Origin: Ignavibacteria bacterium GWF2_33_9
Lineage (GTDB): Bacteria > Bacteroidota > Ignavibacteria > Kapaibacteriales > UBA2268
Assembly: GCA_001804565.1 (NCBI GenBank)
Contig: MHAC01000055.1
Span: 8,909 to 44,518 of the forward strand
Direction: 5' to 3'
Length of the DNA stretch: 35,610 nucleotides
In this document: positions 5,674 through 32,120 of the stretch, in pieces
Numbering within the stretch: the first letter of the stretch is position 1
Layout: every line of letters begins with the position of its first letter
The notes under the pieces: generated by a model
The model's input: the letters and a program-made list of their open reading frames with translations, nothing else
What the model was told of the DNA's origin: nothing
Databases searched by the model: none
Program-made: the position numbers and the translations under genes

Positions 5674-5725
5674 AATAATTGTGCTGTGCGTTAGTGTAAA
5701 AAGCCAACCGCAGACAGACGACAAT

Positions 5726-8700
5726 ATGAAATTGAAGAAAACGGAAATAAAAGAACTGATTACCCTTCTTGGCTTTAAACAGCAAGACGGAGAAAAGGAC
5801 ATTTATTACAAGACTTATAAAAAGCACAAGGACTACATTCTCAAAGTAAATTTTGAGAAAGAAAATATTGAATACGGAACCAAAATTAAACTTGGCGACC
5901 TGACGACCAGCAACTTTGAAAACAGCGAAAATTTTGTTGTGTTGGAGTGTGTGGACAGAGTTTTAGAAAAAGGTTATCCGCCTGACAGACTTTCATTGGA
6001 ACACAAGTGGCCAATGGGAAGAAAAGAAAAAGGCAAGTTGGACATTTTAATCACTGACAAGGAAGACAAAGCCTATTTGATGATTGAGTGCAAAACTTGG
6101 GGCGGTGAATACGAGAACGAGAAAAAGAAAATGCAGCGTGACGGTGGACAGCTTTTTTCTTATTTCCAACAAGACAAAGCAGCCCAATACTTATGCCTTT
6201 ACGCTTCACGACTTAACAAAGGAGCAATTGAATATGTAAACGACATTGTTCAAGTGGACGAGCAATGGGCAACATTGAGCAACCAAAAAGAAATTTTTGA
6301 CCATTGGAATAAAAACTACAAAGACAACGGAATTTTTGAAGATTGGGCAAACGCCTATGATGTAGAAATAAAAGCACTTACAAGGGGCAGACTAAAAGAA
6401 CTGACCGAAGAAGATAGCGGACGAATTTTTAATCAGTTTGCGGAAATCCTACGCCACAATGTTGTTTCAGACAAGCCAAACGCTTTCAACAAAATTTTCA
6501 ATTTATTCCTTTGCAAAATCGTAGACGAAGATCGCAAACCAGACGAAGAATTAAAATTTCAATGGTTAGAGACCGATAATGACGAAGATTTGCAAAAACG
6601 GCTTTCAGACCTTTACAAACAAGGAATGAAAGAGTATTTAACCAAAGACGTTACCGATTACAACGACAAAGAAGTTGAAGACAAACTCTATGCTCTTGAT
6701 GCAGCAGTTAGAGACCAAATCAGGGAAATGTTTACCAAAGTACGTTTGCACAAAAACAACGAGTTTGCGTTCAAAGAAGTATTTGACGAAAAATCATTCA
6801 GAGAAAATGCAATAGTAGTTCGTGAAGTAGTTGAATTGCTTCAACCTTATCAAATTCGTTACGGACACAAACAACAATTTTTAGGCGACTTCTTTGAATT
6901 GCTTTTAAGCACAGGTATCAAGCAAGAAGCAGGTCAATTTTTTACACCTGTTCCAGTTGCCAAGTTTATTATTTCGTCTTTGCCAATTCGTGAACTCATT
7001 GAAAAGAAAATCCAAAATGACGAAACGAACTTTTTGCCTTACATAATTGACTATGCAGCAGGAAGCGGGCATTTCTTGACCGAAGCAATGGACGAAGTGC
7101 AAAATATTATTGAAAGCATTGACCCAAGCAAACAAAAACCCTCTGTAAATTCAAAACTCAAAAGTTGGAAAGAAAGCTCATTTGATTGGGCTTACGATTA
7201 TGTTTATGGCGTTGAAGCCGATTACCGATTAGTAAAAACAGCAAAAGTAAGTTGCTTCTTAAATGGTGACGGTTTGGCAAATGTTATTCACGCTGACGGC
7301 TTAGACCATTTTCAAAAAAGCATTGACTACAAAGGCAAACTAAAAGAAGTTAGTGCAGACGACACCAAAGACAACGGACAGTTTGATATTTTGGTGGCAA
7401 ACCCACCCTATTCGGTTTCAGCTTTCAAAAACACATTGAAAAACGGTGATGAAAGTTTTGAACTCTTTAACCGATTAACTGATGACAGCAGCGAAATTGA
7501 ATGTTTGTTTATTGAACGCACCAAACAGCTTTTAAAAGTTGGTGGTTGGGCAGGTGTGATTTTGCCAAGTTCAATTTTGAGTAATTCAGGCATTTACACA
7601 GATGCAAGAGAAATAATACTCAAATACTTTGACCTAAAAGCCATTACCGAGTTTGGCTCAAATACATTTATGGCAACAGGCACAAACACAGTTACACTGT
7701 TTTTGGAACGCAAACCGAACAACGATTGGAAAAAGATTGAAAACGCTATAAAAAACTTCTTTGACAAACCGAAAGAAGCAACTGTAAACGGCATTGAAAA
7801 AGCATTTAGCAAATATGTTTCAACCGTATTTGAAGGCTTAGAACTTGCCGACTACATTTCGTTGGTAAGCAAGAAACCAAATGAAAACATACAGAAACAA
7901 GAACTTTACAACGACTATAAAACTTGGTTTGCTTCACTCACCGAAGTAAAACAACTGAAAGAAAAGAAAGCATTTAAAGACAAAACCAAAGCAGAGCAGC
8001 AAGCCGAGTTGGATAAACTTTTCTATGAAAAGGTATTTGCCAAAGAGCAAGACAAAATGCTTTACTACTTTTTGGTTTACCCACAGCAAACTGTTTTAAT
8101 CAAGGTTGGTGAGAAACAAGCAGAGAAAGATTTTATCGGTTACGAGTTTAGCAGTCGCAGGGGACACGAAGGAATAAAAATGTATCGTGATGAAAACGGG
8201 AAATCCACAACCAAACTTTATGACGAAGAAAATCCTTTGAACTCCGAAAAGGCGAATAGCTATGTTTACCGCTCATTTTTAGGTAAGAAATTCATTATAG
8301 AAAAGCCTTTAGCAGAAAACATTAGCAAAATAGACACATTAGATTTGATTGATTTTACCAAGCTGGCATTTGAAAAATCCGTGTCTTTAAATGCTAAAAA
8401 AAAAGTTCAACTAAAATCTAAATGGGAACTAATTCCAATAGGGAAAATATGTGAAACAGGTTCAGGTGGAACGCCTTTAACTACCAATCAAGAGTATTAC
8501 AGAAATGGAACTATTCCTTGGGTGAATAGCGGTGAAGTTAGAAATGGAATTATATATGATACGGAAAATAAGATAACAAAAATTGGTTTAGAAAATTCGT
8601 CAGCAAAATTGTTTCCTAAAAACACTGTGTTGGTTGCAATGTATGGAGCAACAACTGGTCAAGTTGGAATTTTAGGGATTGAAGCCTCAACAAATCAAGC

Positions 8701-9493
8701 AGTCTGTGGAATTTTACCATCTGAAAAGATAAACTCATTTTATTTGTATCATTTTCTATCAACTCAACTAGATAACTTTTTAAATCTTAGAAGTGGTGTT
8801 GCTCGTCTTAATATTTCACAAGACATAATTAAGTCTTTCAAAATCCCACTTCCACCAAAACTCATTCAAGAAAAGATAATCAAGGAAATTTCAGCTGTTG
8901 AGCAGAGAGAGAAAGCAGGAAGAGAGAAAACGGAGAAACTAAAAAAACAAATTGACGAACTTTTTGCTTCTGAAAATTTAAAAGGTGCAACCAAAAAACT
9001 TGAAGAAGTTTGTGAAATGAAAGCAGGTAAGTTCAAATCACCTTCTAACATTTTACCAAACAATGTCGAAGAACTTTATCCTTGCTACGGTGGCAACGGT
9101 TTCAGGGGCTACACCAAAACATTCACTCATATTGGCAAATATCCATTGGTTGGCAGACAAGGTGCTTTATGTGGCAATGTTCATTTAGTTGACGGACAAT
9201 TTCACGCTACAGAACACGCCTTAGTCGTGACTGCTTTGAAAGATATTAATGTTGATTGGCTTTACTACTTGCTAAAAAGTATGAACCTTAACAAATATGC
9301 GACAGGGACAGCACAACCAGGACTTTCAGTAAAGAACATAAATCCTTTGCCAGTAAAAGTTCCGACACTCAAAGACCAAGAAAAACTGATTGACAAAATC
9401 AAGAAACTTGAAACAGAAATCAAAGCCATAGAAGCGGACTTAGCCAACATAGACAACGAGAAAGAACAGATATTGAAAAAACATTTAGAATGA
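5726..9493 (+). CDS. Single-chain restriction-modification-specificity protein (nuclease + N6-adenine methylase + HsdS-like two-TRD region; type IIG-like)
   Basis: N-terminal LDILITDKEDKAYLMIECK (PD-(D/E)xK-like), DYAAGSGHFLTEAM SAM motif, ILVANPPYSVSAF catalytic NPPY, two C-terminal HsdS-type segments (WELIPIGKICETGSGGTP...; LEEVCEMKAGKFKSPS...YGGNGFRGYTKTF). ORF track opens at 5681; ATG at 5726 (MKLKKTEIKEL) looks the more likely start. Confidence 0.88.
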   Translation: MKLKKTEIKELITLLGFKQQDGEKDIYYKTYKKHKDYILKVNFEKENIEYGTKIKLGDLTTSNFENSENFVVLECVDRVLEKGYPPDRLSLEHKWPMGRKEKGKLDILITDKEDKAYLMIECKTWGGEYENEKKKMQRDGGQLFSYFQQDKAAQYLCLYASRLNKGAIEYVNDIVQVDEQWATLSNQKEIFDHWNKNYKDNGIFEDWANAYDVEIKALTRGRLKELTEEDSGRIFNQFAEILRHNVVSDKPNAFNKIFNLFLCKIVDEDRKPDEELKFQWLETDNDEDLQKRLSDLYKQGMKEYLTKDVTDYNDKEVEDKLYALDAAVRDQIREMFTKVRLHKNNEFAFKEVFDEKSFRENAIVVREVVELLQPYQIRYGHKQQFLGDFFELLLSTGIKQEAGQFFTPVPVAKFIISSLPIRELIEKKIQNDETNFLPYIIDYAAGSGHFLTEAMDEVQNIIESIDPSKQKPSVNSKLKSWKESSFDWAYDYVYGVEADYRLVKTAKVSCFLNGDGLANVIHADGLDHFQKSIDYKGKLKEVSADDTKDNGQFDILVANPPYSVSAFKNTLKNGDESFELFNRLTDDSSEIECLFIERTKQLLKVGGWAGVILPSSILSNSGIYTDAREIILKYFDLKAITEFGSNTFMATGTNTVTLFLERKPNNDWKKIENAIKNFFDKPKEATVNGIEKAFSKYVSTVFEGLELADYISLVSKKPNENIQKQELYNDYKTWFASLTEVKQLKEKKAFKDKTKAEQQAELDKLFYEKVFAKEQDKMLYYFLVYPQQTVLIKVGEKQAEKDFIGYEFSSRRGHEGIKMYRDENGKSTTKLYDEENPLNSEKANSYVYRSFLGKKFIIEKPLAENISKIDTLDLIDFTKLAFEKSVSLNAKKKVQLKSKWELIPIGKICETGSGGTPLTTNQEYYRNGTIPWVNSGEVRNGIIYDTENKITKIGLENSSAKLFPKNTVLVAMYGATTGQVGILGIEASTNQAVCGILPSEKINSFYLYHFLSTQLDNFLNLRSGVARLNISQDIIKSFKIPLPPKLIQEKIIKEISAVEQREKAGREKTEKLKKQIDELFASENLKGATKKLEEVCEMKAGKFKSPSNILPNNVEELYPCYGGNGFRGYTKTFTHIGKYPLVGRQGALCGNVHLVDGQFHATEHALVVTALKDINVDWLYYLLKSMNLNKYATGTAQPGLSVKNINPLPVKVPTLKDQEKLIDKIKKLETEIKAIEADLANIDNEKEQILKKHLE

Positions 9494-17815: not shown

Positions 17816-18553
17816 ATGATGAAAAAAATATACATCATATTAAGTTCATTACTTGTAATTTTCCTTTTTTCCGGGACGATTCAAGCACAAAATTTATATA
17901 TTTCAGGTGAAAATGAACTATCTTCTTCAAAAGATATTAATGAAGATTGGGAAATTATATTGTATTCTTCAATTGGGAACCAATCAAGCAGTGATATTAC
18001 TTCAAAAGTTAAAATTCACGTTGAAGAAATGACGACCGGTCATAATTATGCTATATGCTGGGGTATTAATTGCTTGCCTTCAACATCGGATTTTGATTGG
18101 GATAAAAGTGACGAATTTGTTATTAATGCAAATTCTATAACTTCAATGGGTACTTTTTCTGCACATTATTATTGTACCGATTATGTCAGCGACCCTATTC
18201 CCGGAAAAGGTGTTCTTGTTTTTACTTTTTATAATGTAAATAATCCCGATGATAATTGTACTTTAAAAGGTACTTTCATCTTCACTGATGGAGGTTCTGT
18301 TTCCGAAACTTACTCAATTCCTTCTGTAAATGTGAATTATACAAATGATAATATTCTTTCTGTTTCAGCAGAAAATTCAGATAATTATCAATTAAGTATT
18401 TTTGATCTAAATGGTGTTCAAGTTGCAAATGCTAATTTCAGCACTTCTTATTCAGGGAATTTCAATAATTTACAAAAAGGTGTATATTTCTATACAATCT
18501 TGGATTCCCAAGGCAAATTTGCTGCAAAAGGTAAAATCCTTACTGAAAAATAA
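17816..18553 (+). CDS. Secreted protein with T9SS type A-like C-terminal sorting domain
   Basis: Signal peptide; C-terminus YQLSIFDLNGVQVANANFSTSYSGNFNNLQKGVYFYTILDSQGKFAAKGKIL. Confidence 0.75.
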   Translation: MMKKIYIILSSLLVIFLFSGTIQAQNLYISGENELSSSKDINEDWEIILYSSIGNQSSSDITSKVKIHVEEMTTGHNYAICWGINCLPSTSDFDWDKSDEFVINANSITSMGTFSAHYYCTDYVSDPIPGKGVLVFTFYNVNNPDDNCTLKGTFIFTDGGSVSETYSIPSVNVNYTNDNILSVSAENSDNYQLSIFDLNGVQVANANFSTSYSGNFNNLQKGVYFYTILDSQGKFAAKGKILTEK

Positions 18554-24810: not shown

Positions 24811-25788
24811 ATGGAAAATAAAAGTTTGAACAAAAATTTGCATTCCGCAAAGAACGCTAAAAAAGATGAATTCTATACGCAACTCCCCGATATAGAACGT
24901 GAACTGAGGCACTATAAAGACCATTTTAAGGGTAAAACCGTTTTCTGCAACTGCGATGACCCCCGAGTGAGTAACTTCTTTAATTATTTCGCTTTGAACT
25001 TCGAGCCGCTCGGTCTGAAGAAACTCATCACCACCTGCTACAAAAGCCAAAATGCCGACCTTTTCAGTACGAACGATTCCGAAAGTGCTGTTTATCTGGA
25101 ATATTACGGCGATAAAAACGACAATAAAGTGCCCGACCCCGAGGAAATCGGAATTAAAAAGCTAAGCGGGGACGGCGACTTCCGCAGTAAAGAAAGCATA
25201 AAACTGCTCAAGCAAGCCGACATCGTGGTAACAAATCCCCCATTTTCCCTATTCCGTGAGTATGTCGCTCAATTAATGGAATACGATAAAAAGTTTGTAA
25301 TAATAGGACACCAAAATTCTATTACATATAAAGAAATTTTCAAGTTGATTAAAGAAAATAAGATATGGTTGGGATATGGCTTTAAACGGAATTGTGCACA
25401 TTTCATTAACAGTCATTATGTTGATTATGCTTCAGACGCAGACCATAAAGAAGGAATGATTAGAGTTTCCGGAATAGTATGGTTTACAAATCTTGATATT
25501 CAAAAAAGACACGAAGACCTGATTTTATTCAAAAAATACACACCTGAAGAATACCCAAAATATGATAATTACGATGCTATAAACGTAGATAAAACAAAGG
25601 AAATCCCAATGGATTATGATGGAGCAATGGGCGTTCCAATCACCTTCCTCGATAAATACAATCCCGAGCAGTTTGAGATTTTGGGACAAATGGTAACAAC
25701 TACAATTGATGATTTTAATTTTGGATATCCATACGTAAATGGGAAAAAAATTTACGCACGAATATTAATAAGGAATAAGCGGATATGA
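24811..25788 (+). CDS. EcoRI-family adenine-specific DNA methyltransferase
   Basis: LHSAKNAKKDEFYTQLPDIERELRHYKDHFKGKTVFCNCDDPRVSNFFNYFALNFEPLGLKKLITTCY and IVVTNPPFSLFREYVAQL. Confidence 0.92.
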   Translation: MENKSLNKNLHSAKNAKKDEFYTQLPDIERELRHYKDHFKGKTVFCNCDDPRVSNFFNYFALNFEPLGLKKLITTCYKSQNADLFSTNDSESAVYLEYYGDKNDNKVPDPEEIGIKKLSGDGDFRSKESIKLLKQADIVVTNPPFSLFREYVAQLMEYDKKFVIIGHQNSITYKEIFKLIKENKIWLGYGFKRNCAHFINSHYVDYASDADHKEGMIRVSGIVWFTNLDIQKRHEDLILFKKYTPEEYPKYDNYDAINVDKTKEIPMDYDGAMGVPITFLDKYNPEQFEILGQMVTTTIDDFNFGYPYVNGKKIYARILIRNKRI

Positions 25789-25856
25789 GAGAGATGAGAA
25801 TATGTGGAAAAAAAATCTTTTCCTAAGTCGTAATATTTATTTATTTTTGTTATGAA

Positions 25857-25879
25857 GATTTAACAATAATTGTTAAATC
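25857..25879. promoter_or_regulatory. Perfect 23-nt palindrome, candidate operator of the MltR-OLD operon
   Basis: GATTTAACAAT-A-ATTGTTAAATC, about 33 bp before the ATG at 25912. Confidence 0.6.
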
Positions 25880-25902
25880 ATATATTTTAAAACAAAATAG
25901 GG

Positions 25903-26502
25903 GTGGAGAGAATGATGCTGCCAGTTCATGTTGAAGAACAAAAAAATAATTCTAAAGCAAAATCAAAAAAAAGTAAGGACAGTAATTGGGAATTACATTT
26001 TCTTATTGAACAATTTCAAAAGGAGAGCGACCGAGCAGCAGTTATATTAATAACTTCAATTTTAGATGAACTATTATTGAAATTATTAAAATGTTTTCTT
26101 GTTCCAATTTCTTCTTCAGAAGATAATCTTTTTGATAATGCAAATAGTCCACTTTCTAATTTTAGTTCTAAAATTGATATTTCATTTAGATTAGGACTTA
26201 TAAGTAATAAATTTTCCAGAGATTTACATTTAATCCGCAAAATTCGTAATTCATTTGCTCATGATATATTTAACTGCAATTTCGAAAATGGAGCAGTTAA
26301 ATCTAGAATTGATGAATTGGAAAAATCTATTATTCACTCACAGAAAATTGATAATATACCGAGGCAAGACGATTTACTTAAAGGCTCAAGGGGTATGTTC
26401 TTATATTTAGCTGGGTTTATGATATGGCAAATAAAAAAGAATATTAATAATATTAATGAACTTAGCAGTTGTTTACCAGAGTCCCTATATATCGGGGAAT
26501 AG
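25903..26502 (+). CDS. MltR-like domain protein
   Basis: FQKESDRAAVILITSILDELLLKLLKCFLVP...LFDNANSPLSNFSSKIDISFRLGLIS...DLHLIRKIRNSFAHD. ORF opens with GTG at 25903; ATG at 25912 also possible with GGAGAG as RBS. Confidence 0.82.
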   Translation: MERMMLPVHVEEQKNNSKAKSKKSKDSNWELHFLIEQFQKESDRAAVILITSILDELLLKLLKCFLVPISSSEDNLFDNANSPLSNFSSKIDISFRLGLISNKFSRDLHLIRKIRNSFAHDIFNCNFENGAVKSRIDELEKSIIHSQKIDNIPRQDDLLKGSRGMFLYLAGFMIWQIKKNINNINELSSCLPESLYIGE

Positions 26503-26510
26503 AATAAAAT

Positions 26511-28319
26511 ATGAAGATTAAATCGCTTAAAATTAGTAATTGGAGATCAATAAACTATATTGAATTAGATTTGCAAAATCTTATGATATTTATTGGTCAG
26601 AATAATCATGGTAAGTCAAATGTCTTATCATCTTTGCTTTTCTTTTTTGGTGAATTAAATTGTAATGATTTAGATTACAAAGACGGTACTGATGAGTTAT
26701 ATGTTGAAATTGAATTTGAAAATTTAGATGATATTGACAAATCAACTTTTAAAAAGTATTTGACAGCGGATAATCATATAAAAGTCAGAAAATCAGCTAC
26801 TAAAGGTAATAAAGTAGAATATCATGGATATTTAGAAATTGCAACTGAAGAATGGCTTAAAGATGGAGCAGAAAAACAATTTACTGATTTAAAAAGTGCC
26901 AAGGAATTACCATTAGGACATTATTTACCTGATTCTGGCAAATTAACACAAAAAGCGTATAAGGAAGCAAGGGATAAGTATATTGAAGAAAATAGAAATG
27001 AGATAAATTTTCAATATCAACTTGAAAACGATCCATTTTTAGGATTAACAAATGTTGCATCAGGCATTTTTGGAGATGTGTTTTATATCCCTTCTGTTAA
27101 GGATGCTAATTCTGAATTAAAATTGGGTACAAATAGTAGTTCTATTTTCAATAAACTTTATTCAAGAGTAATAAATCAGATATCGGAATCCAATCCTGAT
27201 TATAAAGAAGCTAAAGATAAAATGTCCGCTCTAATGAAAATCTTAAATAAAGAAACAGTTGAAGGAACGAAAAATGAACAAAGGCCAGAAGAACTTAATG
27301 TTCTTGAATCAAGTATTGCTGATGAATTGAAAAGTTGGCAAACAACAATTGATATTGAAATAACTCCACCAAATATTGACGATATATTTAAAGTAGGGGC
27401 TTCTGTTTGGATTAATGATGGAATTAAAACAGATATAACAAGAAAAGGTCATGGACTTCAAAGGGCAGTAATCTTTGCTTTAGTTAAATCATGGGCAAAA
27501 TTGTTAATGAATGAAAAACAAAAACAAGAAGAAACATCTGAAAATACTGAAGCTGAAGATAACACAAAAAAGAGCAAGAGAAAATCTTCCAGTTCTGTTT
27601 ATTTCATTATTGAAGAACCAGAACTTTATTTGCATCCTCAGGCTCAACGAGAATTGTTTTCTACACTTGTTGATTTATCTAAAACGGATAATCAAGTTTT
27701 GCTCTGTACTCATTCAAGTTCTTTTATTAATTTAGAAAATTACAAATCAATTTGCATAATCAAAAAAGATAATCAAGAGGAAGGAACAAAAGTCTTTCAA
27801 TATCTTGATGAATTATTTATTGATCCTGAGATAATCAAACAATTTAATCTTTCTTATTGGGTAAACCCTGATAGAAGCGAATTATTTTTTGCAACAAAAG
27901 TAATTCTTGTAGAAGGGCAAACTGAAAAGATAATACTACCTTTTTTAGCAAAAAAATTATTAATTCATAAGTTTGATTATTCAATTATAGACTGTGAAAG
28001 TAAGGATAAAATGATTCCTTATATTGAATTGCTAAATAAATTCAAAATAAAATATATTACTGTTTATGATTTAGATCATCAAACTGGAAAATCGCTTGAT
28101 GCTATTAATTGTGCTGATAAATCCAGCACCTTAATCAATAGTAAAATTGATTCATCATTGGGTCAATACATTATTTTTGAAAATGATATAGAAGAAGAAA
28201 TAGGTATAACTGAAAAAGATAATAAAAATAAACCGTACAAAGCATTAACAACTGTAAATGATGATGCTTTTAATATTAGTGATTCGCTTAAGGAAAAAAT
28301 AAAAAAAATATTTGAATAA
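26511..28319 (+). CDS. OLD-family ATP-dependent endonuclease (ABC ATPase + TOPRIM)
   Basis: Walker A FIGQNNHGKSNVL; Walker B VYFIIEEPELYLHPQAQREL; TOPRIM ILVEGQTEKIILPFLAKKL and YITVYDLDHQTGKS; 8 bp after the MltR-like ORF. Confidence 0.9.
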   Translation: MKIKSLKISNWRSINYIELDLQNLMIFIGQNNHGKSNVLSSLLFFFGELNCNDLDYKDGTDELYVEIEFENLDDIDKSTFKKYLTADNHIKVRKSATKGNKVEYHGYLEIATEEWLKDGAEKQFTDLKSAKELPLGHYLPDSGKLTQKAYKEARDKYIEENRNEINFQYQLENDPFLGLTNVASGIFGDVFYIPSVKDANSELKLGTNSSSIFNKLYSRVINQISESNPDYKEAKDKMSALMKILNKETVEGTKNEQRPEELNVLESSIADELKSWQTTIDIEITPPNIDDIFKVGASVWINDGIKTDITRKGHGLQRAVIFALVKSWAKLLMNEKQKQEETSENTEAEDNTKKSKRKSSSSVYFIIEEPELYLHPQAQRELFSTLVDLSKTDNQVLLCTHSSSFINLENYKSICIIKKDNQEEGTKVFQYLDELFIDPEIIKQFNLSYWVNPDRSELFFATKVILVEGQTEKIILPFLAKKLLIHKFDYSIIDCESKDKMIPYIELLNKFKIKYITVYDLDHQTGKSLDAINCADKSSTLINSKIDSSLGQYIIFENDIEEEIGITEKDNKNKPYKALTTVNDDAFNISDSLKEKIKKIFE

Positions 28320-28341
28320 AAACACAATAAAAATATAGTTC

Positions 28342-28740
28342 TTTGATTTTTGTATCCCGCCGCCTCTCCTCCCCCTCTAACAAGAGGGAGCTGGGGGCGT
28401 GTCAGGAGGCAGGAGGGAGGAGGGAGTTGGGGTGTTCCTGTGTTACCATAGTATAATCACTACGTGATAAAAAATACAAGAACCGTAGAAAAGAAATCAC
28501 ATAGTGATTTCATTAAGGTAACCAAACAAAGAATGAACAGATAGATATCACGTAGTGATTTGATTTTTGTATCCCGCCGCCTCTCCTCCCCCTCTAACAA
28601 GAGGGGGCTGGGGGGTGTGTCAGGAGACAGGAGGGAGGAGAGAAGAGGGAGGAGGGAGTTGAGGTGTTCCTGTGTTACCAAAGTAATATCACTATGTGAT
28701 AAAAAATGCAAGAACCGTAGAAAAAATATCACGTAGTGAT
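28342..28740. repeat. Imperfect tandem duplication, unit about 217 bp
   Basis: TTTGATTTTTGTATCCCGCCGCCTCTCCTCCCCCTCTAACAAGAGGG... at 28342 and again at 28559, each carrying the C/G-rich palindrome, a GTTACC box and two hairpins. Confidence 0.85.
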
Positions 28741-28994
28741 TGTACTTAGGTAACCAGTCTAAGGAAGGATAAAAAATATCACGTAGTGATTGTATTAAGG
28801 TAACCAAACAAAGCAAGAACAGATAGATATCACGTAGTGATTGTACTTAGGTAACCAGTCTAAGGAAGGATAAAAAATATCACGTAGTGATTGTATTAAG
28901 GTAACCAATCAAAGCAAGAACAGATAGATATCACGTAGTGATTAAATTAAGGTAACCAAACAGAAGCAAGAACAGATAGATATCACGTAGTGAT
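28456..28994. repeat. Upstream REP-like hairpin array (10 copies)
   Basis: ATCAC-GTA-GTGAT or its reverse form at 28456, 28496, 28547, 28688, 28728, 28778, 28829, 28879, 28930, 28982 (13 nt each; variants at 28496 and 28688). Confidence 0.92.
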
Positions 28995-29018
28995 TGTATT
29001 ATAAAAAAGGAAGAACTT

Positions 29019-29492
29019 ATGGCAAACACTTATACACAAATTTTCATACAAGTCGTCTTTGTTGTGAAAGCCAGACAAAACCTAATTCCTCAAGAAAAAA
29101 AGGAAGAGCTTTTCAAGTATATTGCCGGCATAATAAAAGAAAAGGGTCATAAATTATATATAGTAAACGGGATGTCTGACCATGTGCATATTCTTCTGGG
29201 TTATAATCCGGTAGAAGCACTTTCTGATTTGGTAAAAGAAGTAAAACGGTGTTCTTCAATTTATATAAACAACAATAAATGGGTGAAAGGGAAATTCGAA
29301 TGGCAACCTGGTTACGGTGGTTTTTCCTATTCAAAATCCCAAACTAATGCTGTTTATAAATATATAGAAAATCAGGAAAAGCATCATAAAAAGAAAACTT
29401 TCCGTGAAGAGTATGTAGAATTTCTCAAGAAGTACGAAGTAGATTATGACGAGAGATATATCTTTGAGGAAGTACTTAATACCTTAGTTTAA
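29019..29492 (+). CDS. IS200/IS605-like Y1 transposase, REP-associated tyrosine transposase (RAYT) type
   Basis: YTQIFIQVVFVVKARQNLI, GMSDHVHILLGYNP (HxH), QTNAVYKYIENQEKHHKKKTFREEY (catalytic Tyr region). Confidence 0.9.
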   Translation: MANTYTQIFIQVVFVVKARQNLIPQEKKEELFKYIAGIIKEKGHKLYIVNGMSDHVHILLGYNPVEALSDLVKEVKRCSSIYINNNKWVKGKFEWQPGYGGFSYSKSQTNAVYKYIENQEKHHKKKTFREEYVEFLKKYEVDYDERYIFEEVLNTLV

Positions 29493-29503
29493 AACATAGT
29501 GTA

Positions 29504-29628
29504 ATCACTACGTGATAACTGAGGAGGGTTGTATAGTTGCGGTTACCAAAGTATAATCACTACGTGATTATTGGGTGATGTGGTTTAGATTCTGTTACTA
29601 TGTTACTAAAATATTATCACTACGTGAT
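29504..29628. repeat. Downstream REP-like hairpins (3 copies, inverted orientation)
   Basis: ATCACTACGTGAT at 29504-29516, 29556-29568, 29616-29628. Confidence 0.92.
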
Positions 29629-29640
29629 AAACTGTGCAAT

Positions 29641-29700
29641 TAAGAAAATCCAAGATAAAAAGGATTCCACTAAATGAAAATAGCACTTAAAGAAATTTCA
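29641..29700 (+). pseudogene. Relic of a second dinD/DUF262-HNH gene junction
   Basis: Aligns to 31005-31064 at about 51/60 identities; encodes KKIQDKKDSTK* overlapping MKIALKEIS, matching [12 protein letters not shown] / MKIELKEIT. Confidence 0.75.
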
Positions 29701-29712
29701 ATTTGCAAAAAT

Positions 29713-29785
29713 GGGGCTGTAGCTCAAATGGAAGAGCATTTCGTTCGCAACGAAAAGCTTGAGGGTTCGAGTCCCTTCAGCTCCA
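29713..29785 (+). tRNA. tRNA-Ala (anticodon CGC)
   Basis: Acceptor GGGGCTG/CAGCTCC with G3-U70, D-arm GCTC/GAGC, anticodon arm TTTCG-TTCGCAA-CGAAA, T-arm GAGGG-TTCGAGT-CCCTT, discriminator A. Confidence 0.92.
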
Positions 29786-29873
29786 CTACTAACAAGAGGG
29801 GGCTGGGGGGGGGTGTCAGGAGGCAGGAGGGAGGAAAGAAGAGGGAGGAATAAAAAGGAACACACCCCTAAAT

Positions 29874-29891
29874 CCCCTCTTAATAGAGGGG
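29874..29891. repeat. Dispersed C/G-rich palindrome
   Basis: CCCCTCT-taat-AGAGGGG; same family as 28373-28388, 28590-28605, 34983-35002. Confidence 0.75.
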
Positions 29892-29902
29892 ACTTTGAAT
29901 AA

Positions 29903-29926
29903 AATTACCCTGAATTCGGGGTAATT
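29903..29926. promoter_or_regulatory. GAATTC-centred palindrome upstream of KilA-N ORF
   Basis: AATTACCCTGAATTCGGGGTAATT, one T/G mispair, 21 bp before the ATG at 29948. Confidence 0.55.
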
Positions 29927-29947
29927 AAAATGATTTAAAGGTAACTT

Positions 29948-30169
29948 ATGGCAAAAATAAATGTAAAACAAACAAGCATTTCAATTCTTCAACTTAATGA
30001 AGTTGATTATGTTTCATTAACAGATATTGCCAGATACAAAAGTGATGAACCAACAGCGGTTATAGCTAATTGGTTGCGAAATAGAAATACTCTTGAATAT
30101 CTGGGTATTTGGGAAACTTTATATAATCCGGCTTTTAAACTCCTCGAATTCGAGGGGTTTAAAAATTAA
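29948..30169 (+). pseudogene. Truncated KilA-N domain protein
   Basis: [54 protein letters not shown] is the N-terminal part of a KilA-N domain; stops at 73 aa. Confidence 0.7.
30133..30164. repeat. 32-nt GAATTC-centred palindrome at the 3' end of the KilA-N ORF
   Basis: TTTTAAACTCCTCGAATTCGAGGGGTTTAAAA, one T/G mispair. Confidence 0.8.
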
Positions 30170-30180
30170 ATAATATAATT

Positions 30181-31041
30181 ATGAAAAGAGAATTAATAAC
30201 AGAATTATTTGAAAAGTTTGAAGATGCCTGCTATCTATATCAAGGAATTGAGTGCTGGAGTGCTAGGGAACTTCAAAGTATTTTGGGTTATGCTCAATGG
30301 CGAAATTTTGAAAACGCAATAGAAAAAGCCAAAACAGCTTGCCAAAATGCAGGTGAATTTATTCAAAACCATTTTGCTGATATCAGCAAAATGGTAGATA
30401 TAGGGAGTGGTGCTCAGAAACCTATAGATGATATAGCATTAACACGATATGCCTGCTATTTGATTGCACAAAATGGCGATTATACAAAATCACAAATTGC
30501 TTTTGCTCAGACGTATTTTGCGGTTCAAACAAGAAAGCAGGAAATTATTGAAAAAAGATTGCTGGACGTGGCGAGAGTTAATGCCCGAGAAAAACTAACA
30601 CAATCTGAAAAGAAATTATCAGGAATTATATTTGAAAGAGGTGTGGATAATCGAAGTTTTGCAAATATTCGCTCAAAAGGCGACCAAGCTTTGTTCGGTG
30701 GTAGAACAACTAATGATATGAAACGAATTTTGAATGTTCCGAATAATCGACCTCTTGCAGATTTTTTACCTACCCTTACAATCAAGGCAAAAGATTTTGC
30801 AACTGAATTGACAAGTCATAATGTTGTAGAAAAGAATTTAAGTGGTGATGCCCAAATTACCGATGAACACGTAGAGAATAATCTCGCAGTTAGGAAAATG
30901 CTACGAGAACGAGGAGTCAAGCCGGAACAACTCCCACCTGCCGAAGATGTGAAAAAAGTAGAAAGAAGATTGGAAAGCGATGAGAAAAAGATATTGAAAG
31001 GAAATAAGAAAATCCAAGAAAAAAAGGATTCTAAAAAATGA
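30181..31041 (+). CDS. dinD: DNA damage-inducible protein D
   Basis: [101 protein letters not shown]. Confidence 0.92.
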
Positions 31042-32120
31042 AAATTGAACTGAAAGAAATTACTGTTAGAGAGCTGGCGAACGGTTACAAAGACAATGCA
31101 GAAGAAGGCGTTATCGGCTATGGCGGCAAATTGGATATACGCCCGCCTTACCAAAGAGAATTTATCTACAAAGATAAGCAAAGAGATGCCGTAATAACTA
31201 CAATCCGCAAGAACTTTCCGCTGAACGTGATGTATTGGGCAGTTCGTGAGGACGGCAATTACGAAATTATAGACGGTCAGCAGAGGACAATTTCCGTCTG
31301 CCAATACTTAATCGGCGACTTTTCCTATTATAATTTATATTTTCATAATCTGCAGGACGACGAGCAAGAGCAAATCCTGAACTATAAACTGATGATTTAC
31401 CTTTGCAGCGGCACCGACAGCGAAAGATTGGAATGGTTCCGAACGATTAATATTGCAGGCGAAAAACTGACCGACCAGGAATTGCGGAATGCAGTTTATT
31501 CCGGCTCTTGGGTAACTGACGCAAAAAGATATTTCAGCAAAAACGGTTGTGCCGCATACAGCATTGGGCATAATTACTTGACCGGCTCTCCAATTCGCCA
31601 GGAATATCTGGAAACAGCAATTGATTGGATTACGGACGGTAAAATCGAAGTATATATGTCCAAACATCAGCATGACCCAAATGCGACTGCACTTTGGATG
31701 TACTTCCAATCGGTAATTACCTGGGTACAGGCAACATTCCCTGTTTATCGTAAAGAAATGAAAGGAATCGACTGGGGCAGATTATATAATAAATATAAAG
31801 ATAAAATTTACGATACGAAGCAATTAGAAAGCGAAATACTGAAATTAATTGATGATGACGATGTGCAGAGCATAAAAGGGATTTATTTATATATATTGAC
31901 AGGAGAAGAAAAACACTTAAACCTACGCCAATTCGATGAAAAAACCAAAAGAAAAGTTTACGAACAGCAAGAAGGAATTTGCACGCAGTGCAAAAAGCAT
32001 TTTGAGATAACCGAGATGGAAGCCGACCATATTTTACCGTGGCATAGAGGCGGCAAAACAATAATCGAAAATTGCCAAATGCTCTGCAAACTCGACAATA
32101 GAACTAAATCCGGGAAATAA
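31038..32120 (+). CDS. DUF262 (ParB-like) + C-terminal HNH endonuclease protein
   Basis: [32 protein letters not shown] (DGQQR), [53 protein letters not shown] overlap with dinD stop. Confidence 0.9.

Follow-up and report, generated by a model that had tools for sequence, protein, structure and literature searches.

The window, meaning the whole stretch of 35,610 nucleotides analysed here, contains a gene for a Y1 HUH transposase, tnpA, set within an array of 13 short hairpins at positions 28456-29628. Ten of the hairpins lie upstream of the Y1 ORF and three downstream (Table 1). Each reads ATCAC-GTA-GTGAT or the reverse complement; 11 of the 13 are exact, and the other two (28496 and 28688) have a single mismatch, in the loop. 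A scan of the window allowing up to two mismatches returned 14 matches, compared to 0.62 expected in dinucleotide shuffles and a shuffle maximum of 3. The fourteenth match, at 17983, is unrelated, and the count of ten and three in the preliminary description is confirmed. The density it called unusually high is well above that of the shuffles in the window, but two relatives, L108 and L023, have similar counts.

All three downstream hairpins read ATCACTACGTGAT (the TAC orientation), and eight of the upstream hairpins are in the GTA orientation, including the six closest to the gene. The other two upstream hairpins, at 28456 and at 28688 (the latter with a TAT loop), are TAC. The change of orientation around the gene is strong, yet imperfect, and the flip at the gene that was first described holds for the nearest six upstream and all of the downstream hairpins, but not as a single flip through the whole array.

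Upstream of the gene the units have a period of 50–52 nt. Two duplications are visible in this part of the array (Table 1): the one of two units, at 99% identity, represents recent growth of the array, and in the older one (82%) a C-rich repeat and a TAC-GTA pair were copied as one block. The first two hairpins form an inverted pair that folds better than 200 of 200 shuffles on both strands. An Rfam search of the array gave no matching family.

Table 1. Coordinates of the gene, hairpins and repeated blocks at the tnpA locus
Feature	Position	Strand	Description
tnpA	29019..29492	+	predicted Y1 HUH transposase, assigned to TnpAY1 subclass 1.2, 157 aa; PF01797 1.9e-25
Hairpin 1	28456..28468	+	TAC orientation; TTAC at -13 (28443-28446)
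Hairpin 2	28496..28508	-	GTA orientation, loop ATA; TTAC at -13 on - strand (28518-28521)
Minimal inverted pair	28442..28523	.	GTTACC-N-hairpin(TAC) ... hairpin(GTA/ATA)-N-GGTAACC; 82-bp near-palindrome
Hairpin 3	28547..28559	-	GTA orientation; no YTAY at -13 (ATAC); adjoins C-rich repeat
Hairpin 4	28688..28700	+	TAC orientation, loop TAT; TTAC at -13
Hairpin 5	28728..28740	-	GTA orientation; TTAC at -13
Hairpin 6	28778..28790	-	GTA orientation; TTAC at -13
Hairpin 7	28829..28841	-	GTA orientation; TTAC at -13
Hairpin 8	28879..28891	-	GTA orientation; TTAC at -13
Hairpin 9	28930..28942	-	GTA orientation; TTAC at -13
Hairpin 10	28982..28994	-	GTA orientation; gene-facing, 24 nt before start codon; no YTAY
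Hairpin 11	29504..29516	+	TAC orientation; gene-facing, 12 nt past stop codon; no YTAY
Hairpin 12	29556..29568	+	TAC orientation; TTAC at -13
Hairpin 13	29616..29628	+	TAC orientation; TTAC at -13
Tandem duplication, 101-bp two-unit block	28726..28927	.	28726-28826 = 28827-28927, 99% identity
Older block duplication	28336..28791	.	28336-28560 with 28553-28791, 82%

The array is interspersed with a hairpin repeat rich in C and G, CCCCCTCT-AACA/ATCA-AGAGGG (28336-28435, 28553-28660 and 29781-29890). This repeat has 12 copies in the genome at up to two mismatches, and is a different dispersed repeat, outside the tnpA system. The locus is surrounded by a defence-like gene cluster (24811-32120, beside a tRNA-Ala) that encodes an EcoRI-type methylase, an OLD/retron-Eco8-like AAA-TOPRIM nuclease, DinD and a GmrSD-HNH protein. 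Elsewhere in the window, 5681-9493 encodes a single-chain restriction-modification protein, with a methylase and two specificity domains.

The tnpA protein

The protein encoded by tnpA has an HUH motif (54-DHVH-57), W95-Q96, Y115, Q119, H122-H123 and a C-terminal extension at 128-150. Across 20 relatives, H55, H57, W95, Q96, Y115, H122 and H123 are invariant, and Q119 is conserved. The PF01797-type core match ends near residue 120, and beyond it are a conserved helix (128-138) and a tail. An AlphaFold2 model (pLDDT 88.9) is nearest to the ISDra2 and IS608 transposases among PDB structures, with the E. coli RAYT 4ER8 next. There is one copy of tnpA in the genome, in which two other Y1_Tnp matches look unrelated. 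In comparison to L021, an 84% relative from another assembly, pN/pS is 0.11, with synonymous sites saturated, which points to purifying selection on the gene.

Quentin et al. 2018 (PMC6006769) described TnpAY1 subclass 1.2 as IS200-related but without IS properties: proteins of about 148-150 aa with the motifs Y---Q--HH, DH[IV]H and WQ and a C-terminal domain of their own, present in low copy number in Bacteroidetes and lacking typical IS200 ends. The window protein shares these motifs, a length of about 150 aa, the C-terminal domain and the low copy number, and its motifs, length and C-terminal extension all indicate that it belongs to this subclass. It passed the NCBIfam IS200/IS605 profile NF033573 (70.5 bits vs a cut-off of 55) and failed NF047646, REP_Tyr_transpos (24.5 bits vs 80). 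The preliminary description had called it a RAYT, a name that these scores, the Y motif (YIENQEKHH, of the class 1 type and not Y...NP) and the lack of GTAG at the hairpin foot do not support. The locus is not classed as a RAYT because two defining features fail, the class of the protein and the GTAG foot.

Hairpins around the gene in relatives

The flanks of the gene were compared in a family set of 120 distinct relatives, in which hairpins were scanned within 600 bp of the gene. A scan for the ATCAC hairpin found it in L021 only, and by itself would suggest a private array, while a loop-based scan for any hairpin reveals a rule of the family. The hairpin closest to the start codon is GTA in 94 of 103 relatives, and the hairpin closest to the stop codon is TAC in 72 of 76. 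Where there are hairpins on both sides, the order is GTA..TAC in 65 and TAC..GTA in 1. The statistics from relatives share ancestry, with kinship handled only by 70% clustering in the orientation and density test; one member from each of 53 clusters (<70% identity) gave 35 GTA vs 7 upstream (p=1.5e-5) and 31 TAC vs 1 downstream (p=1.5e-8). The arrangement of GTA upstream and TAC downstream is a conserved rule of this protein family, seen across Bacteroidota-type bacteria.

TAC-triloop hairpins occur at 2.11/kb near the gene (up to 600 bp) vs 0.012/kb past 1.5 kb, which is about 180 times denser, and 155 of 196 spacings between neighbours in the family are 48–54 nt. Twelve of the 120 relatives have no TAC-triloop hairpins within 600 bp of the gene. 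The stems differ by lineage – GCTCC and GCCTC in Chryseobacterium; GTCCC, GTTCC and ATTCC in Flavobacterium; TTCAC, ATCGC, ACTGC and others – and three paralogs in a single genome (L108, L023 and L208 in G046) bear three different stems. Stem type tracks the protein tree, with 40 changes compared to 51–57 in 200 shuffles. L021 has the hairpin of the window, oriented as it is there, and its array includes ATCTC-TAC-GAGAT, in which a change to the stem is compensated on both sides.

A second signal lies beside the hairpins. On the TAC strand, exactly 13 nt before the foot of the stem, YTAY is present in 190 of 358 family hairpins vs about 8 expected per position, and in the window TTAC is found there in 10 of 13. 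The 5'-flank consensus is YTAYYAAYATDTM, immediately before the 5-bp stem, with GTAG absent at the foot. YTAY is rare at the hairpins that face the gene (16 of 128) and common at the next ones (174 of 212). Likewise, in the dispersed elements of F. defluvii and Emticicia it is found at 2 of 35 outermost hairpins and 29 of 42 inner ones. Since gene-facing hairpins and outermost hairpins are alike in lacking YTAY, the gene appears to sit between the ends of elements, not inside an element.

Copies away from the gene

No further tnpA-type unit was found outside the locus in the genome of the window, which is 94% complete in 87 contigs. The 13-mer has one other exact copy, at the start of a contig (C54:33-45), and near copies at C50:15339 and C65:13316. 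These were considered as a dispersed REP population and rejected, being within a different C-rich repeat and without YTAY at -13. That dispersed repeat, ccaccccgtc-ATCAC(TAC/TTC)GTGAT-g(c/a)cacccctc..gagggg, has a palindrome of its own that gives the 13-mer or a near copy, and is seen in the same form in another genome (G014, C380:1280). The preliminary description held that a lack of further copies elsewhere in the genome would mean a local array only, and this is the outcome: what the genome has is one array at one locus, enlarged by tandem duplication, with no sign that the enzyme has spread its units. The neighbourhood of the locus is not kept in genomes of the same genus, where synteny is too poor for an empty-site comparison.

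The same description had suggested a comparison with related strains, and in relatives cognate hairpins are dispersed in some genomes and their copy number follows tnpA. Certain genomes of Flavobacterium and Emticicia hold 5–43 dispersed copies, most of them in inverted elements of several hairpins, for which the commonest order is TAC,TAC,GTA,GTA. Exact copies of GTCCCTACGGGAC number 43 in Emticicia, 33 in F. defluvii and 31 in F. panici, vs 0–1 for reversed-pattern controls. Among 121 Flavobacterium genomes, all 9 with at least 5 copies fall among the 43 with a strong tnpA match (p=5e-5, with no phylogenetic correction); the mean is 4.1 copies with a strong match vs 0.15 without. Among the relatives of the window, at least two ATCACTACGTGAT were found in 10 of 149 genomes, each of which also has a tnpA match.

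Two intergenic sites hold an element in some species but not in others. Both are filled in G168/G248; the first is empty in the congeners G218, G232, G161 and others, and the second in the congener G221. At both sites the exact ends of the element and the target junctions are blurred by divergence.

Other arrangements were also seen. Chryseobacterium piscicola (L227, G153:C6) and Epilithonimonas tenax (L228, G158:C30) have tandem arrays of 10–15 units of GCTCC-TAC-GGAGC at an exact 51-nt spacing, all in a single orientation and with no tnpA match in the stretch examined. In L217 (G019:C48), pairs of TAC-TAC hairpins are found 3' of genes and in gene orientation, following, for example, an ADP-ribosylglycohydrolase and a toxin-antitoxin-like pair, with YTAY at the second hairpin and not the first.

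Interpretation and known systems

The locus is likely to be a REPtron-like system of an IS200-class (TnpAY1 subclass 1.2) HUH endonuclease. IS200-type enzymes bind single-stranded DNA hairpins and choose their cut sites via guide sequences 5' of the palindromes, and RAYTs cut near GTAG-tagged REPs (PMC8266576). For the subclass 1.2 enzyme, we infer from the hairpins and their flanks that its target is most likely the short hairpin with a TAC triloop, in single-stranded form, and that cleavage would occur at or near YTAY, 13 nt upstream of the TAC hairpin. Inverted units (TAC...GTA), in pairs or groups, would then be non-autonomous miniature elements that the enzyme multiplies or moves, and that could be processed from either strand. 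The gene itself would stay put between the ends of elements, unable to leave because the hairpins facing it are without YTAY.

An ordinary insertion sequence of the IS200/IS605 type, with the hairpins as its ends and the whole of the gene and array mobile, is improbable here. The class 1 HUH/Y1 protein does score above the NCBIfam IS200 cut-off, its nearest solved structures are those of ISDra2 and IS608, and the genes next to it are not the same in the window and L021. However, the hairpins on the two sides are inverted throughout the family rather than in the same orientation, the genome has a single copy, and relatives hold diverged paralogs and not recent copies. The inner hairpins also lack YTAY on the gene side, so no unit of cut site, hairpin, gene, hairpin and cut site can be formed on one strand. 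The first reading of the layout as REPIN-like, and not as IS200 ends, is borne out by the family-wide rule and by the dispersed inverted elements in relatives.

The single copy and apparent purifying selection would also suit domestication of the enzyme for auto-regulation or a host role, in which the array titrates TnpA or controls expression of tnpA, and the dispersed copies are sites of host action that do not move. The closeness of the hairpins to the start and stop codons, at conserved gene-facing positions, would fit as well. We consider this unlikely: the presence and absence of elements at orthologous sites and the long tandem arrays in G153 and G158, which lack the gene, look like proliferation, and the signal for a promoter or terminator role of the hairpins was no stronger than in shuffles. 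It is very improbable that the array is a tandem-repeat artefact, either a local satellite grown by slippage next to an unrelated transposase or a misassembly. The genome has no other copies and a 101-bp block is doubled at 99%, and the array copy number in this genome could be off, but L021, assembled separately, is flanked by the identical hairpin and orientation, and the rule is seen in 120 loci from many assemblies. These two observations refute an artefact as the full account.

The proposed REPtron-like system resembles several known ones in part. With the RAYT/TnpA-REP systems of class 2 (E. coli 4ER8, Stenotrophomonas, Marinomonas; PMC8266576, PMC3116915) it shares a stationary, single-copy Y1 gene, inverted flanking hairpins, a hairpin family specific to the enzyme and cognate hairpins dispersed as inverted pairs, the last in relatives only. 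It differs from them in its class 1 protein, TAC loop, YTAY at -13 and tandem units of about 51 nt, and in its stem of 5 bp rather than at least 7 bp, with no GTAG/GTGG 0–2 nt 5' of the foot. From IS200/IS605 elements (IS608, ISDra2), which have the same protein class, fold and catalytic residues and a left end (cut site, then hairpin) that resembles the tetranucleotide upstream of the hairpin here, it differs in that it has no same-orientation ends and is not an autonomous, multi-copy IS. TIRYTs/TIRtrons (Di Nocera et al. 2013, PMC3733652) likewise have a Y1 gene between inverted, possibly dispersed repeats, but TIRYTs belong to class 2 (subclass 2.1 for the most part) and are marked by long HTH domains at the C-terminus and GGGG[AT][CG]A[CG] repeats, none of which were seen here.

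The survey of subclass 1.2 (PMC6006769) left the group with no partner or function and with the table entry "REP: no", whereas the members described here have flanking TAC-triloop hairpins and, in relatives, dispersed elements. Such hairpins were probably overlooked because the earlier motif search was restricted to stems of 7 bp or more with a GTAG/GTGG tag, neither of which is found here. The subclass appears to have a hairpin system of its own, seemingly a new one; a full-text literature search, with subscription journals and preprints outside its scope, found no description of it.

Descriptions of REPs and RAYTs have concerned class 2 enzymes, chiefly those of Proteobacteria. We tentatively suggest, as a possibility that falls a little short of probable, that a RAYT-REP-like system arose a second time, independently, in subclass 1.2: an IS200-class enzyme that is no longer mobile itself but maintains and spreads a distinct class of miniature elements, with a TAC triloop and a YTAY at -13 that resembles a cut site, in Bacteroidota as well as other phyla, each paralog with its own type of stem. 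A partner repeat with a simple grammar – a 5-bp stem, a TAC loop and YTAY at -13 – would make a system of an orphan group of proteins, and would account for a set of repeats between genes that carry no annotation in Flavobacterium, Chryseobacterium, Emticicia and their relatives. It may also offer an independent comparison for how transposases turn into resident genes with dependent miniature elements.
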